Shown one piece after another: positions 6,351 to 27,281 of a DNA stretch of 33,346 nucleotides. The translations under genes and the position numbers were made by a program. Position 1 is the stretch's first letter, and the number at the start of each line of letters is the position of its first letter. The stretch is from Balneolaceae bacterium (GTDB taxonomy: Bacteria; Bacteroidota; Rhodothermia; Balneolales; Balneolaceae). The notes beneath the pieces were generated by a model, which did no database searches, was not told the DNA's origin, and saw only the letters and a program-made list of their open reading frames with translations. Where the stretch lies: NCBI GenBank assembly GCA_007134085.1, contig SLLL01000164.1, positions 1 to 33,346 on the forward strand. Direction: 5' to 3'.

Positions 6351-6902
6351 ATGAGATATTTACTTCTATTCATCATGACAATAAGTATAATTGCCTGTTC
6401 AGACAGCACAACAGGAACAGACGATTCCGATGTTACACCGGGTGAGGGCATCATAACCGTTTCAGGAGACATCCAGGAAGAGCACCAGGGCATTTCCCAA
6501 TATGTTGGCCTCAGAAATAATGATGGAGAATTTTTAAATCTCGCATTGCACGTAAATCAATTAGGGCTCGCTACAGAACAGGAGAGCGATTTTGATTTTG
6601 CAATCAGACTGGTTGGCGGCGAAGGTCCCTTTTCATTGGAAACGGGAGATTATCAAATAGGCGAGTCTAATAATATTGGCATGCTTGCCACCTATTCGAA
6701 CAGGGTGGTTTCAGATAACACCATTACCTATGGATCCACACCCAGCTCCAGTGGAGCGATTACCATTGTGTCAATGACCTCAACAAGTATAGAGGTTGTT
6801 TTTGATGTGACTCTTCACCTGATTGAAGAGGAAGGAAGCATAAATGTCACCGGGGCTTTTAATGCGGAATGTTTAACCGCTGACGCCGGATTTGGATGCT
6901 GA
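6351..6902 (+). CDS. Putative lipoprotein, tandem paralogue 1 (family unknown)
   Basis: I do not recognise a named family. The first 16 residues are a lipoprotein signal ending in the lipobox SIIAC with Cys16 as acylation site, followed by an Asp/Ser/Thr-rich linker. The rest of the 183 residues alternates in a beta-strand-like manner. It aligns along its length with the next gene: TGDYQIG against TGEYNLG, a GAITIVSMTSTSIEV region, and a C-terminal GSINVTGAFNAEC segment. Two cysteines near the end (one in NAEC, one the last residue) occur at like positions in both proteins and could form a disulfide. A small cell-envelope beta protein is likely; the function is unknown. Confidence 0.8.
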   Translation: MRYLLLFIMTISIIACSDSTTGTDDSDVTPGEGIITVSGDIQEEHQGISQYVGLRNNDGEFLNLALHVNQLGLATEQESDFDFAIRLVGGEGPFSLETGDYQIGESNNIGMLATYSNRVVSDNTITYGSTPSSSGAITIVSMTSTSIEVVFDVTLHLIEEEGSINVTGAFNAECLTADAGFGC

Positions 6903-6967
6903 TAATGGCTCTTATGCCTTCGTGTATTCAATCAAAAAAATTGTAAACCTTTTTATCACACTTAACC

Positions 6968-7519
6968 ATGAAAAAGATATACAGATATCCCGCAATCATC
7001 CTTACACTATTGATTCTAATCTCTTGCTCGGATAATGCTGCCGGGCCCGATGGATCGGATTTAAATCAGGGGGAAGGGGCCTTTACTGTAACCGGAGCCA
7101 TAAATGCTGAGCATAGCGGGGAAGCCTGGTACACAGTGGACCCGAGGGATGATGGTACGGTATTTCAGTTATTTGTAAGTGATGTAGAGTTCAGCGCCAA
7201 CCCTGATACAAATGAGAATGTTACCTTCGTGCTTGAATTCAGGCAGGATTTCGGTTCAGATTCTTTTTCAATATCAACTGGGGAGTATAATCTGGGAGCC
7301 AGTGCACCATTTCGCGGCATGTTTGCAGATGTAGCCACTGCTACGGCTTACGAAACCATGGGGAATTCAGGGGGTACTTTAAACATCACATCCTACTCGA
7401 GTGGTTTGGTGGAGGCTGAATTTGAGTTTTCAGCAACGGGACCCGAGGGCGGCAGTGTAACAGTTACCGGTGGATTGCGGGCAAGTTGTATTGGCGGTCA
7501 GTTTAATCCGAATTGTTAA
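6968..7519 (+). CDS. Putative lipoprotein, tandem paralogue 2 (family unknown)
   Basis: This protein has exactly the same length as its upstream neighbour (183 residues) and shares its architecture: a signal peptide ending LILISC (Cys20), an acidic linker with the shared GEG motif, a beta-rich body with TGEYNLG and GGTLNITSYSSG, and a C-terminus GSVTVTGGLRASC ending in a final Cys. Sequence identity is modest apart from these blocks, so the duplication is old or the proteins diverge fast. It lies 65 bp after paralogue 1 with no visible terminator between, so they are probably co-transcribed. Its stop is only 3 bp from the end of convergent tex. No function can be assigned. Confidence 0.8.
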   Translation: MKKIYRYPAIILTLLILISCSDNAAGPDGSDLNQGEGAFTVTGAINAEHSGEAWYTVDPRDDGTVFQLFVSDVEFSANPDTNENVTFVLEFRQDFGSDSFSISTGEYNLGASAPFRGMFADVATATAYETMGNSGGTLNITSYSSGLVEAEFEFSATGPEGGSVTVTGGLRASCIGGQFNPNC

Positions 7520-7522
7520 AAC

Positions 7523-9700
7523 TCAAACCACCTTCAACCCAATCCGTCCGCGCTCGTTGTCGATCGATGTAATTTCGACATTGATGATATCCCCAACTGA
7601 AACCTCATCATGAGGATTTTCAACGCGTTTACCGGTATTGCTCATATTCGAGATATGCAGCAAGCCATCCTGCTTTACACCTATATCCACAAAAGCTCCG
7701 AAATCTACTACGTTTCTAACGGTACCTTCCAGCTTCATGCCGGGGGATAGATCTTCCATTTTTAAAACATCTTGACGTAACAGTGGTTTTGGAAGGGATT
7801 CGCGCGGATCGCGTCCGGGTTTTTGCAGATTTTCGATAATCAGTTCAAGAGTGGGCACGCCCACACCAATTTTTTCAGCAATCTCATTTTTATCAGAGTT
7901 GGCAAAGAGTGATTCAATCTTTTTCTGTTGGCTTGATAAATTTTCCACATCAATACCGAACAGATTACAGAGCTTCTCTGCTGCTTCGTAGCTTTCCGGA
8001 TGGATGGCAGTATTATCAAGCGGATGACGCCCTTCGGGTATGCGCAAGAATCCTGCAGCCTGCTGAAATCGGAAATCACCAACACCCGTGATTGCTTTCA
8101 GCTCATCACGGCTGGTAAAACGCCCTTTTTGATCGCGATATTCAATGATATTACGGGCAACATTTCGGCTGAGGCCGGAGATATGTGTGAGCAGTTCGGC
8201 ACTTGCCGTATTCAGATTCACACCAACATCATTCACGCAGCTTTCTACAACATCATCCAGCTTTTTTGATAGTTGGTTTTGATTGATATCATGCTGATAG
8301 AGGCCAACACCAATCGATTTTGGATCAATTTTTACCAGCTCTGCGAGCGGATCCTGCACTCTGCGGGCAATTGAAATATTACCCCGCTGGGCTGCGTCAA
8401 GATCAGGAAACTCCTCTCTTGCTACAGCAGAAGCCGAGTAAACAGAAGCTCCCGCTTCGCTGATGATCAGGTAATTGAGCGTTTTATCCGGATGGGCTTC
8501 TTTTCGCTTTTGAATCACATCAGCGATAAACATCTCCGTCTCCCGGCTTCCCGTGCCGTTACCGATGGCAATGAGAGTCACCTTGTGCTTGTCGATATAC
8601 CGGTTTACAACCTCAGCGCTTTCAGCAATTTTATTTTGAGGAGGGGTGGGATAGATGGTACTTCCTTCAAGGTATTCGCCGGTTTCGGTAACTATCGCAA
8701 CTTTGCAGCCTGTTCTGTAGGCGGGATCAATGCCCATTACAACCTGGTTTTTAAGTGGTGGCTGCATCAGCAGATTTTTCAGGTTTGTAGCAAAAGTTTC
8801 GATTGCGTGCTGATCTGCCTCAGCGGTTAGCTCATTTCTCAGTTCACGTTCAAGTGAAGGGAACAACAGCCGTTTGTAGGCATCTTCAACCGCATCCTGC
8901 AGCCATGTGGTAAAGATGGAGTGGTCGTTTGTAATAACCACATCATCAATATTTTCGAGTGTGCGTTCCTCGTTGAGCTCCAGATTTACAAAAAGCACAT
9001 TTTCCCGTTCGCCGCGATTTAATGCCAGAACCTGATGCGGCTTAATGTAGGGTACACGGTTTCTGAACTCATAATAATCCTCAAAGTTTGTACGCTCTTT
9101 TATCGCAGGATTCTTTTCTGATGTGATCACTCCATGTTTTCTCATTATGTCCCGCAGTTTATCACGAACTTCAACCGATTCATTAATCCACTCCGCAACG
9201 ATATCGAGGGAAACCTTCAGAGCCGTATCTGCATCGGGGATTTCCTTTTCAGTATTTATGTATTCCCGTGCAATATCCAAAGCATTTCCGGTTTCAGTTT
9301 CCTGCTGCCAGATTAGTTTAGCCAGCGGTTCCAGGCCTTTCTCCTTAGCCATATCGCCGCGGGTTTTCTTCTTTTTCTTGTATGGCAGATAGAGATCTTC
9401 AAGGGTTTTCAGATCTGTACAGGCCTTGATGGCAATTTCAAGTTCCGGCGTTAGTTTATCCTGATCTTTAATTGCCTTTAAAATGGCCTTTTTTCTTGCC
9501 TCCAATGAACGGTGAAACTCCAGAAGGTCACGAACTGCGCGCAGTTTTTCTTCATCAAGTCCACCGGTAGCTTCCTGCCTGTAGCGGGCTAAAAACGGAA
9601 TGGTGGCACCTTCGTCAATAAATGTAGCAACAGCTTGAACTTGTTTAGCTGATAGTGAAAGAGATGTGGATATGGTTGAGATGATTTGGGAATCGGACAT
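7523..9700 (-). CDS. tex: Tex-family RNA-binding transcription accessory protein
   Basis: The 725-residue protein has the full Tex layout: an N-terminal helical Tex domain (about 1-200), a YqgF/RuvX-like RNase-H fold starting at VMGIDPAYRTGCKVAIV (321-337), helix-hairpin-helix repeats (about 495-560, with ISGLSRNVARNIIEYR and ITGVGDFRFQQAAG), and a C-terminal S1 RNA-binding domain (about 655-725, FVDIGVKQDGLLHIS). Tex proteins bind nucleic acid and affect transcription and stress tolerance; the exact role varies between species. The gene stands alone on the minus strand, convergent with the lipoproteins and divergent from the hisN-like gene. No defect is visible. Confidence 0.96.
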   Translation of the reverse strand: MSDSQIISTISTSLSLSAKQVQAVATFIDEGATIPFLARYRQEATGGLDEEKLRAVRDLLEFHRSLEARKKAILKAIKDQDKLTPELEIAIKACTDLKTLEDLYLPYKKKKKTRGDMAKEKGLEPLAKLIWQQETETGNALDIAREYINTEKEIPDADTALKVSLDIVAEWINESVEVRDKLRDIMRKHGVITSEKNPAIKERTNFEDYYEFRNRVPYIKPHQVLALNRGERENVLFVNLELNEERTLENIDDVVITNDHSIFTTWLQDAVEDAYKRLLFPSLERELRNELTAEADQHAIETFATNLKNLLMQPPLKNQVVMGIDPAYRTGCKVAIVTETGEYLEGSTIYPTPPQNKIAESAEVVNRYIDKHKVTLIAIGNGTGSRETEMFIADVIQKRKEAHPDKTLNYLIISEAGASVYSASAVAREEFPDLDAAQRGNISIARRVQDPLAELVKIDPKSIGVGLYQHDINQNQLSKKLDDVVESCVNDVGVNLNTASAELLTHISGLSRNVARNIIEYRDQKGRFTSRDELKAITGVGDFRFQQAAGFLRIPEGRHPLDNTAIHPESYEAAEKLCNLFGIDVENLSSQQKKIESLFANSDKNEIAEKIGVGVPTLELIIENLQKPGRDPRESLPKPLLRQDVLKMEDLSPGMKLEGTVRNVVDFGAFVDIGVKQDGLLHISNMSNTGKRVENPHDEVSVGDIINVEITSIDNERGRIGLKVV

Positions 9701-24407: not shown

Positions 24408-25421
24408 ATGTTTCAAAAGTTTTTTTCAGCACTATTTGTAGTGCTTTTTTTAGCGTCTTGCGCTCAACGTGATGAAGTAAATATCTACTCATCCCGCCAT
24501 TACGATACCGACAATGAACTTTACGACAGGTTTACGGAAGAGACAGGAATCCATATCAACCTCATTGAAGGTTCAAGTGATGAATTGATCGAACGCATCC
24601 GGAATGAGGGCATTAACAGTCCGGCTGATATCGTCATTACAGTTGATGCCGGCAGGCTTTGGCGTGCAAAAGAAGCGGGAATTCTTCAACCTCACAACTC
24701 TGACTTTCTGAACGAAACCATTCCTCAACAGATGCAGGATGCTGAAGGCTACTGGGTAGGGCTTTCAGAACGCACGCGAGGAATAATCTACAACAGAAGC
24801 ACAGTAGATCCTGCAGAATTGCAGGGATACCTTGAACTGGCGGATGAAAAATGGGAAGGGCGAATTTGCATCCGGTCGTCAAATAACATTTATAACCAAT
24901 CACTTGTAGCCTCGATGATTGAAGTTCTTGGTGAAGAGGCTACCGAAGAGTGGGCAGGGCGGTTGGTTCAAAATTTTGCACGTCCTCCACAGGGTGGCGA
25001 TACTGATCAGATTAAAGCTGTTGCTGCCGGTTTGTGTGATGTGGCTCTTGCAAATCACTACTATCTGGCGAGGTTAATGCAGTCATCATCTGCCCAGGAT
25101 CGTGAAGTAGCCGGGCAGGTTGGCATCTATTTTCCACCTGCTGAATATGGCGGTACTCACGTAAACATCAGTGGTGCCGGGATAGCAGCCAATTCGCCAA
25201 ATCGTGAACATGCCGTTCGTTTTCTTGAATATCTGGCTACTGAAGATACACAACTGATTTTCGCGGTTGGCAATAATGAATTTCCGGTTCTCGGCGGACT
25301 CGATCTGCCGGAAGCACTGCTCTCTTTTGGTACGTATGACAGCGATGCTGTAAACGTAACGTATTATGGAGTCAACAACCCCGCAGCCATCCGCCTTATG
25401 GACAGAGTTGGGTGGAGATAA
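24408..25421 (+). CDS. Ferric-iron ABC transporter substrate-binding lipoprotein (FutA/FbpA type)
   Basis: The 337-residue protein has a lipoprotein signal ending LFLASC (Cys18) and the FutA-type iron-binding fold. IYSSRHYDTD at 26-35 gives His31 and Tyr32, NIYNQ gives Tyr162, and NHYYLARL gives Tyr218 and Tyr219. These offsets (0, 1, 131, 187, 188) equal those I recall for the His and four Tyr iron ligands of cyanobacterial FutA1. It captures Fe(III) outside the inner membrane and delivers it to a FutB/FbpB permease, the likely partner being the convergent gene at 25587. The ATPase subunit is not in the window. A perfect palindrome over its promoter suggests iron-dependent repression. Confidence 0.92.
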   Translation: MFQKFFSALFVVLFLASCAQRDEVNIYSSRHYDTDNELYDRFTEETGIHINLIEGSSDELIERIRNEGINSPADIVITVDAGRLWRAKEAGILQPHNSDFLNETIPQQMQDAEGYWVGLSERTRGIIYNRSTVDPAELQGYLELADEKWEGRICIRSSNNIYNQSLVASMIEVLGEEATEEWAGRLVQNFARPPQGGDTDQIKAVAAGLCDVALANHYYLARLMQSSSAQDREVAGQVGIYFPPAEYGGTHVNISGAGIAANSPNREHAVRFLEYLATEDTQLIFAVGNNEFPVLGGLDLPEALLSFGTYDSDAVNVTYYGVNNPAAIRLMDRVGWR

Positions 25422-25434
25422 GTACTAACGATGA

Positions 25435-25509
25435 TCCTGCTTCGTACAATTGGTTTGAGGGATTGAATCATTGATTGGTTGTTTTCGGACGGGGACGTCC
25501 GATCTACGT
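25435..25509 (-). repeat. REP-like composite repeat, unit 1
   Basis: The unit begins TCCTGCTTC, where a degenerate second hairpin lies, and contains the hairpin TCGGACG-GGGA-CGTCCGA (25485-25502). On the minus strand GTAG (25507-25504) sits just 5' of that hairpin, the head tetranucleotide typical of REP elements. Unit 2 lies 86 bp on. Confidence 0.75.
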
Positions 25510-25515
25510 ACTTAC

Positions 25516-25592
25516 GAAGCTCCTGCTTCCTACACTTGGCTTGAGGGGTGTATCACAGATTGGTTTTTCGAACGGGGACGTTCGATCTACGT
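25516..25592 (-). repeat. REP-like composite repeat, unit 2, overlapping the permease stop codon
   Basis: The first hairpin is GAAGC-TCCT-GCTTC (25516-25529), headed on the minus strand by GTAG (25533-25530). The second is TCGAACG-GGGA-CGTTCGA (25568-25585), headed by GTAG (25590-25587). One stem pair differs from unit 1 on both sides, so pairing is kept. The TAG of the last GTAG is the stop codon of the permease gene. Confidence 0.75.
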
Positions 25593-27281
25593 TTTTCTGG
25601 TTCTGGCAATGGATTTGCTGAGGATAAATACGGGTACGAGTCCTACAAGAATAATTGCAAGAGCCGCACCGGATGATTCTGCAAGCCGTTCATCAGAAGC
25701 CAGGCGATAAACCTGCACGGCGAGCGTATCGAAATTGAATGGACGCACAATGATGGTTGCGGGCAGTTCTTTTATCACGTCTACAATTACAAGCATAATC
25801 GCTGCAAACAAACTTCCAGACATCATCGGCACGTGCACTTTGCCGAGTGTTTTCCCGAAACTGTATCCCATACCTTCGGCAGCTTCGTCCATACTTGGGG
25901 TGATTTTGCCAAGGCTTGCTTCAACCGTGTTGAATGCAACTGCCAAAAATCGTACCACATAGGCAAATATCAGCGCAAATATAGTGCCGCTGAGGAGCAG
26001 CCCCGATGAGATTCCAAATGTGCTTCGCAGCCAGCTGTCGATTGTGTTATCCATCCAGCCGAAAGGAATCAGAATTCCTACGGCAATTACAGAGCCGGGG
26101 ATTGCATAACCCATAGAACCGATCCGGGTTGATGCTTTGGTTAAAAAGTTGGGGTTTAACCGAACTCCATAAGCCATGATTAATGCTACAATCAGAGCGA
26201 TTACACCTGCCATTAGTGCAACAAGAATAGTGTTGAGGCTGAACTGCAGAAACCTAGCATCAACCGCGGCGTCGAAATTGGCAATCATCATATCAATAAG
26301 AATAGCAGTTGGTATGATAAAACCGATGAGTACAGGAACAGAACAGAAAGCTGTGCTTGCCCACTTTTTCCAGCCTTGTAGTTTGTAAATGTGGAGGTGC
26401 TTGTACCGGCCGGCAGAGCTCTGTTTCATACTCATCTTATTACGGCTCCACCGTTCAAGAAGAATTAAGAAGAGTATGAAAATCAGCAGAAATCCGGCAA
26501 GCTGTGCAGCAGCAGCACGTTCGCCAAGCCCAAACCATGTTCTGTAAATGCCGGTGGTAAAGGTTTGCACACCAAAGTAATCAACTGTTCCAAAATCGTT
26601 TAGGGTCTCCATCAAGGCGAGAGCCATACCCGCTGCAATAGATGGCCTTGCTAAAGGAAGGGCAATTTTGTAAAAGCTTTGAAGCGGAGAAGCACCGAGG
26701 CTGCGGCTGGCTTCAAGCAGTGATGATGATTGCTCCAAAAATGCTGCCCGGGTTAGCAGATAAACGTAGGGAAAGAAAACGAACGACATCATCAGTATCG
26801 CCCCGCCTATGGACCGAACGTTGGGAAACCAGTAATCACCTAAACCCCAGCCGGTTATATCGCGGATTAATGTTTGCAGGGGGCCGGTATATGCCAGAAA
26901 ATCGGTATAGGTGTAGGCCATCAGGTAAGCGGGAACGGCCATCGGCAGTATCAACATCCAGTTGAACCACTTGCTGCCGGGGAACGAACACATGGTTACC
27001 AGCCAGGCGGTGCCAACCCCAAGAATAAACACACCATTGCCAACGCCCAGCATTAAAATGATGGAGTTTTTCACATAATCGGGCAGTACGGTTGATGCAA
27101 GATGCTGCCATACATCCCCGCTGGGCACAAACAGGTTGGCTGCAACAGTAAAAACAGGAACCCCAACAAGCAGGGCAACAAGGATGGTTAAAACAGTCCA
27201 CCATCCGGAACCGGTACGAGCGGTAGCTGAAGCATTTTTTACAGGCCTGAGATGTTTTGTTTGCAGGATGTTGCGAATCAT
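25587..27281 (-). CDS. Ferric-iron ABC transporter permease (FutB/FbpB type, two fused membrane domains)
   Basis: The 564-residue protein holds two copies of the binding-protein-dependent transport domain, about 12 membrane segments in all. Each copy has its ATPase-coupling EAA loop: EASRSLGASPLQSFYKIALPLARP (190-213, first half) and DEAAEGMGYSFGKTLGKVHVPMMSG (465-489, second half). This fused layout is typical of FbpB, FutB and SfuB ferric permeases. It converges on the binding-protein gene, which is unusual since these are normally one operon; the ATPase gene is elsewhere. Its TAG stop lies inside a REP-like repeat. Residues after GLVPVFILSKS are a short basic tail, RTRKT. Confidence 0.92.
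   Translation of the reverse strand: MIRNILQTKHLRPVKNASATARTGSGWWTVLTILVALLVGVPVFTVAANLFVPSGDVWQHLASTVLPDYVKNSIILMLGVGNGVFILGVGTAWLVTMCSFPGSKWFNWMLILPMAVPAYLMAYTYTDFLAYTGPLQTLIRDITGWGLGDYWFPNVRSIGGAILMMSFVFFPYVYLLTRAAFLEQSSSLLEASRSLGASPLQSFYKIALPLARPSIAAGMALALMETLNDFGTVDYFGVQTFTTGIYRTWFGLGERAAAAQLAGFLLIFILFLILLERWSRNKMSMKQSSAGRYKHLHIYKLQGWKKWASTAFCSVPVLIGFIIPTAILIDMMIANFDAAVDARFLQFSLNTILVALMAGVIALIVALIMAYGVRLNPNFLTKASTRIGSMGYAIPGSVIAVGILIPFGWMDNTIDSWLRSTFGISSGLLLSGTIFALIFAYVVRFLAVAFNTVEASLGKITPSMDEAAEGMGYSFGKTLGKVHVPMMSGSLFAAIMLVIVDVIKELPATIIVRPFNFDTLAVQVYRLASDERLAESSGAALAIILVGLVPVFILSKSIARTRKT

Follow-up and report, generated by a model that had tools for sequence, protein, structure and literature searches.

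The 33,346-nucleotide stretch analysed here (the window) is contig C91 of a Balneolaceae draft assembly (G000; 3.1 Mb, 261 contigs, 91% complete). It contains two convergent ABC transporter genes, encoding a substrate-binding protein (24408-25421, plus strand) and a permease with two BPD_transp_1 stretches (25587-27281, minus strand). Their description as iron-transport genes in the first-pass annotation is not established, as the best NCBIfam matches of both are 2-aminoethylphosphonate transporters, below threshold. Between these genes, at 25422-25590, lies an array of two tandem, partly decayed REPIN/BIME units; an Rfam scan of the window returned no match.

Unit 1 (86 bp, GTAC...CTAC, 25422-25507, plus strand) starts directly 3' of the TAA stop codon of the substrate-binding protein gene, with its ends defined by other copies in the genome and by the orthologous site in the relative G002. 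It comprises a decayed B-type REP hairpin on the plus strand (TAACGATGA-TCCT-GCTTCGTAC, 25426-25447) and an A-type REP on the minus strand (GTAG-A-TCGGACG-TCCC-CGTCCGA, 25485-25507), the latter reading on the plus strand as TCGGACG-GGGA-CGTCCGA (25485-25502) followed by CTAC (25504-25507), the complement of the minus-strand GTAG. Across the junction CTACGTAC follows unit 2 (83 bp, GTAC...CTAC, 25508-25590, plus strand), a tandem copy. Its B-type REP on the plus strand (GTAC-TTAC-GAAGC-TCCT-GCTTC, 25508-25533) retains the hairpin core GAAGC-TCCT-GCTTC at 25516-25529, with an outer stem that is decayed relative to intact B copies in the genome. The A-type REP of unit 2 (GTAG-A-TCGAACG-TCCC-CGTTCGA, 25568-25590, minus strand) reads on the plus strand as TCGAACG-GGGA-CGTTCGA (25568-25585), then CTAC (25587-25590), again a minus-strand GTAG.

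Both units thus share one layout: a B hairpin on the plus strand with loop TCCT, about 55 bp later an A hairpin on the minus strand with loop TCCC, and a terminal CTAC. With 0.05 occurrences expected, the two A cores of the window are not due to chance. The hairpins and their GTAG-tagged REP type had been recognized at first pass, together with the composite two-hairpin unit, and all of these stand. The accompanying description of a single orientation does not, since B, judged by the conserved TCCN loop and the GTAG head, lies on the plus strand and A on the minus strand. Nor is B preceded by GTAG on the minus strand: the CTAC at 25530-25533 lies on the wrong side, where intact copies read GCTTCGAAAA, and the unit-2 B hairpin has its own head, GTAC, at 25508, as in the copies on contig C218.

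Searches of the host genome recover a dispersed family, with the B pattern at 29 places (reversed control, 0) and the A pattern at 32 (reversed control, 5). Together, about 35 A and 33 B hairpins (~68) are found on 13 contigs, numbers that rest on pattern searches and individual contigs and depend on mismatch limits. Adjacent A/B pairs within 130 bp are inverted in 47 of 47 cases, with the GTAG heads outward; the head-to-head centre distance across the join is 28 to 30 bp in every case, and the inner distance ranges from 47 to 114. The GTAG head is present in 25 of the 35 A and 22 of the 33 B hairpins, the remainder being mostly GTAC, GTAA, or decayed. Canonical arrays on contigs C9, C73, C152, and C177 repeat the unit GTAGATCGAAGC-TCCC-GCTTCGA-spacer-CCGGACG-GGGA-CGTCCGG-TA-CTAC, with CTACGTAG as the join between units. 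Compared with these, the units in the window are more decayed and resemble the C218 copies, with a GTAC head on B and a partly unpaired outer stem. All arrays are intergenic at the loci examined, and five of them start no more than about 20 bp from a stop codon. The copy number is modest for REPs. We also observe that, within a REP array, the right end of C9 is identical to the left end of C152 over more than 60 bases; these contigs are probably adjacent and part of one array, and REP arrays appear to break the host assembly.

Pairing within the stems has been maintained through mutation. Among 40 distinct A hairpins, the base pair at which the two window copies differ is GC in 20, AU in 14, GU in 2, CG in 1, and UG in 1, and changes on both sides occur at four of the eight stem pairs. 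In the A stem, 50 cells are changed on both sides against 17.5 in shuffles; in the B stem, which varies less, the corresponding values are 21 and 6.9. For these covariation scores, none of 500 shuffles reaches the observed value and slid controls also fall far below it, bearing in mind that related sequences can exceed shuffles. The compensatory G-C/A-T change pointed out in the window A stems at first pass is therefore real and general. An unpaired GTAG 5' of a short hairpin, a stem selected for pairing, and many dispersed extragenic copies characterize the family as GTAG-tagged REPs, and the inverted two-REP repeating unit with outward heads as REPIN/BIME. The first-pass annotation had named a lack of further copies, or copies devoid of GTAG and pairing, as the outcome that would count against it; neither was observed. 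Single units fold into two separate hairpins rather than one long hairpin, and the heterodimer form of BIME-2 fits them better than a REPIN in the strict sense, where the REPs pair with each other.

The permease gene takes its TAG stop codon (25587-25589, minus strand) from the array, namely from the GTAG that heads the A-type REP of unit 2. In three relatives with no recognizable REP (G008, G025, and G016), the permease runs a few codons past this point before its stop; in the window, the outer REP head has taken the place of the gene's own stop. G002, the closest relative, with a permease that is 96% identical, carries a single decayed 88-bp unit, GTAG...CTAC, at exactly the same site, so the element and its place are older than the split between the host and G002, with one unit either gained by the host or lost by G002. 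Most other relatives whose intergenic region was examined have other sequence there. At the orthologous site by the permease in G015, G012, and G005 (L264, L267, and L268), we find a different inverted repeat, GACATGGTATTTTT ... AAAAATACCATGTC, which suggests that this site is prone to palindromic insertions.

The position between convergent stop codons raises the question of whether the array is primarily a bidirectional terminator of the two genes, its likeness to other copies being secondary. Co-option of REPs as terminators is known, and a terminator-like match does lie at 25568-25585 on the plus strand. However, such matches number 1 against 0.3 expected, and the T run of this one falls in the neighbouring coding sequence. 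In addition, units of this kind also separate gene pairs that are orientated differently (C23 and C177), and most relatives whose intergenic region was examined lack a recognizable A/B unit. We therefore regard this explanation as improbable, although a terminator role is compatible with a mobile origin; any role in transcription termination or at mRNA ends may be secondary.

A mobile origin is supported by RAYT genes in relatives of the host. G068, a member of the same family, encodes a 207-aa RAYT with A and B hairpins, headed GTAG or GTAA, on both sides. The protein displays the motifs SNHVH, FWQYESYDRVIR, and YTLYNP, and thus an HuH and Y1 core with REP-recognition residues, and it keeps the WQ....DR..R pattern that has been linked to GTAG recognition (PMC6006769). 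It scores over the cut-off for PF01797 and just below that of 80 for NF047646 (E 3e-21, 75.8 bits), and the sole PDB match of its clade is TnpArep 4er8. PF01797 on its own overlooked class-2 RAYTs or gave them too low a score; finding them took NF047646 and, after that, the G068 protein as query. A second relative, G036, harbors a frameshifted RAYT of this clade with an A hairpin upstream and B and A hairpins downstream; the two RAYTs are mutual best matches (74% over the C-terminal piece and 59% over the N-terminal piece). A RAYT bordered by the same hairpins, which the first pass had suggested looking for, is thus present in these two relatives, whereas the host assembly holds no RAYT of the G068 clade at E<=1e-10. 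That it is absent from the host is not thereby proven: the assembly reaches 91% completeness, and one contig or more (C73 among them) breaks off inside an array.

Across 245 relatives, the RAYT clade is present in 24. Hairpins lie within 250 bp on both sides at 15 of 23 loci examined (0 in base-shuffled flanks), and at 8 of 23 two different hairpins are joined at a TACGTA core. The flanking hairpins differ by genome, with, for example, AGCGGGTC and CTCGGCTC in G063 and GCCGGACA and AACGGGCA in G005 and G007. The exact B core is nearly restricted to the host's family, which accounts for 16 of the 17 genomes that have it among 245 of the class. It is most abundant in the host itself (22), G063 (21), G068 (12), G005 (10), and G015 (8), with 0 to 2 per genome in reversed controls. 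Although G063 has 21, different hairpins border its RAYT. On contig C11 of G063, B hairpins are regularly spaced at 3.7 to 4.1 kb, and the ORFs between them differ. The heads also vary within this one RAYT clade: some genomes have GTAG, others GTAC or GTAT (L197, L201, L207, L213, and others). In a Stenotrophomonas REP, introducing GTAC abolished cleavage (PMC8266576). RAYT residue 95 is Q or H, and Q is found with both GTAG and GTAC, so a correlation of this residue with the head tetranucleotide is suggestive at most. Separately, G002 encodes a RAYT of another type (YLHKNP; C41, 1220-2060, L143) bordered by inverted GTCTGGCGCAAGCG-TCCC-CGCTTGTGCC hairpins, which share the TCCC loop with the window REPs and differ in stem and head.

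The host genome does contain other Y1 and RAYT-like genes: two IS200-like Y1 genes on C151 and C235, whose YIKNQ..HH motif is that of subclass 1.2 (PMC6006769), and three genes with weak resemblance to RAYTs, on C188, C228, and C154. We found no direct A/B hairpin border at any of the five. The C151 protein could in principle have mobilised the repeats in place of a RAYT, given that its gene (C151:7367-7711) has an A/B array on either side (6567-6785 and 8399-8535). Gene and arrays are nevertheless kept apart by several hundred bases that belong to a different repeat family (GCCCCAACGGGGC ... GCCCTGAAAGGGC), no A/B hairpins occur within the examined flanks of the C235 gene or the G063 Y1 loci, subclass 1.2 has been reported to lack REPs (PMC6006769), and the protein does not resemble the G068 RAYT to any meaningful degree. 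Mobilisation by this protein is accordingly very unlikely. As a candidate for the predicted RAYT, the C151 gene was likewise rejected, belonging to subclass 1.2 and carrying its own repeats, as were the genes on C188, C228, and C154, none of which is bordered by A/B hairpins and the last of which has no HuH motif.

Some of these genes show features of their own. The C151 gene sits among several copies of a compound repeat, GCCCCAACGGGGC...ATAGTGCGAAGCGCTAT...GCCCTGAAAGGGC (6800-8400, L060), and CCCCG/CGGGG palindromes also surround the second subclass-1.2 gene of the host (L061), though the subclass is described without REP-like flanks. Within the RAYT-like gene on C188, a GTAGGGGC...GCCCCTAC hairpin lies in frame (1438-1466, L159), as described for subclass 2.4. 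The C154 product (L189) and a counterpart in G068 (C172, L191) are Y1-like proteins of about 185 aa that match the RAYT profile and have CILPDRILLL and VILPDRILLM, respectively, with no HuH motif; they are perhaps domesticated, inactive derivatives. In G036 and G009, similarly sized matches to the profile adjoin a succinyl-CoA synthetase beta-like gene.

Finally, local tandem duplication of a chance hairpin, with no mobile DNA involved, would account for the two window units being direct repeats (~84% over 43 nt), and tandem growth did occur, but the same units on more than ten host contigs and in other genera of the family refute it as an origin.

We conclude, with a probability of roughly 0.9, that the array is a member of a GTAG-tagged REP family in BIME/REPIN form, non-autonomous and, by analogy, moved by a RAYT. 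The family, its orientation, its ends, its covariation, and its presence at the RAYT genes of two relatives are direct observations. The unit measures about 80 to 140 bp and consists of two different hairpins in opposite orientation, with GTAG heads outermost and a variable inner spacer, where B is TCGAAGC-TCCN-GCTTCGA and A is CGNACG-TCCC-CGTNCG plus 2 to 3 variable outer pairs. E. coli TnpAREP cuts single-stranded REPs at CT by the hairpin and requires GTAG (PMC8266576), and the window's family would, by analogy, be cleaved in the same way. A RAYT, as an HuH/Y1 enzyme, would recognise head and hairpin on single-stranded DNA and cut and rejoin there, spreading the unit to intergenic sites in trans; the RAYT that moved the window copy may be one such enzyme. 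Tandem growth would proceed via the palindromic CTAC|GTAG junction. The window holds a pair of such copies, arranged in tandem and partly decayed, where the two convergent genes end.

While the kind of element, a REP/BIME moved by a RAYT, is well known, the family in Balneolaceae is new, and no paper in the literature library searched joins "repetitive extragenic palindromic" with "Balneola". For this lineage, our analysis contributes a REP/BIME family with clear limits, together with the RAYT clade that belongs to it. The clade could serve for testing how RAYTs recognise DNA, since hairpin pairs and heads vary from one related RAYT to the next. More tentatively, and at somewhat less than even odds, one Balneolaceae RAYT clade may keep two different partner hairpins, sometimes abutting at a palindromic TACGTA core, while the pair and the guide tetranucleotide (GTAG, GTAC, or GTAT) vary by genome; if true, this would offer a natural series for reading the RAYT recognition code, in which the element itself would demand two sites. 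For annotators, the arrays matter in that they end contigs and create spurious ORFs.

Among known systems, the family resembles E. coli BIME-2 with yafM/TnpAREP (PMC2817692, PMC8266576) in having a pair of unlike GTAG-headed hairpins that face opposite ways, intergenic arrays in tandem, and both kinds of hairpin around a RAYT gene, as with the Y and Z2 REPs around yafM (PMC2817692). In contrast to BIME-2, the hairpin sequences are unrelated, with perfect stems and a TCCN loop in place of bulged stems; the junction is the palindromic CTAC|GTAG, copies are far fewer, the RAYT was not found in the host assembly, and the RAYT in relatives belongs to another clade of about 207 aa, with D and R replacing E100/H101. 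The REPINs of Pseudomonas fluorescens (PMC3116915) share the inverted REP doublet as unit, the outward heads, and the RAYT-associated clusters, whereas here the two REPs are not identical and the doublet therefore folds into two hairpins instead of one long one. With GTAG REP families 1-24 (PMC3733652) the elements have in common the GTAG tag, a 6-9 bp stem, a short loop, head-out heterodimers, and a location downstream of genes. The hosts of GTAG repeats listed there are Proteobacteria, Cyanobacteria, Chloroflexi, and the PVC group, with no Bacteroidetes-type host among them; Bacteroidetes appear for CGTC repeats only. By motif comparison, the G068 RAYT resembles subclass 2.7 (PMC6006769), with which it shares NHVH, WQ, the D100/R101 pattern, a length of about 213 aa in that subclass, and GT[AG]G-headed REPs, while the Y motif is YTL[YN]NP here and YI[LR][NQ]NP there.
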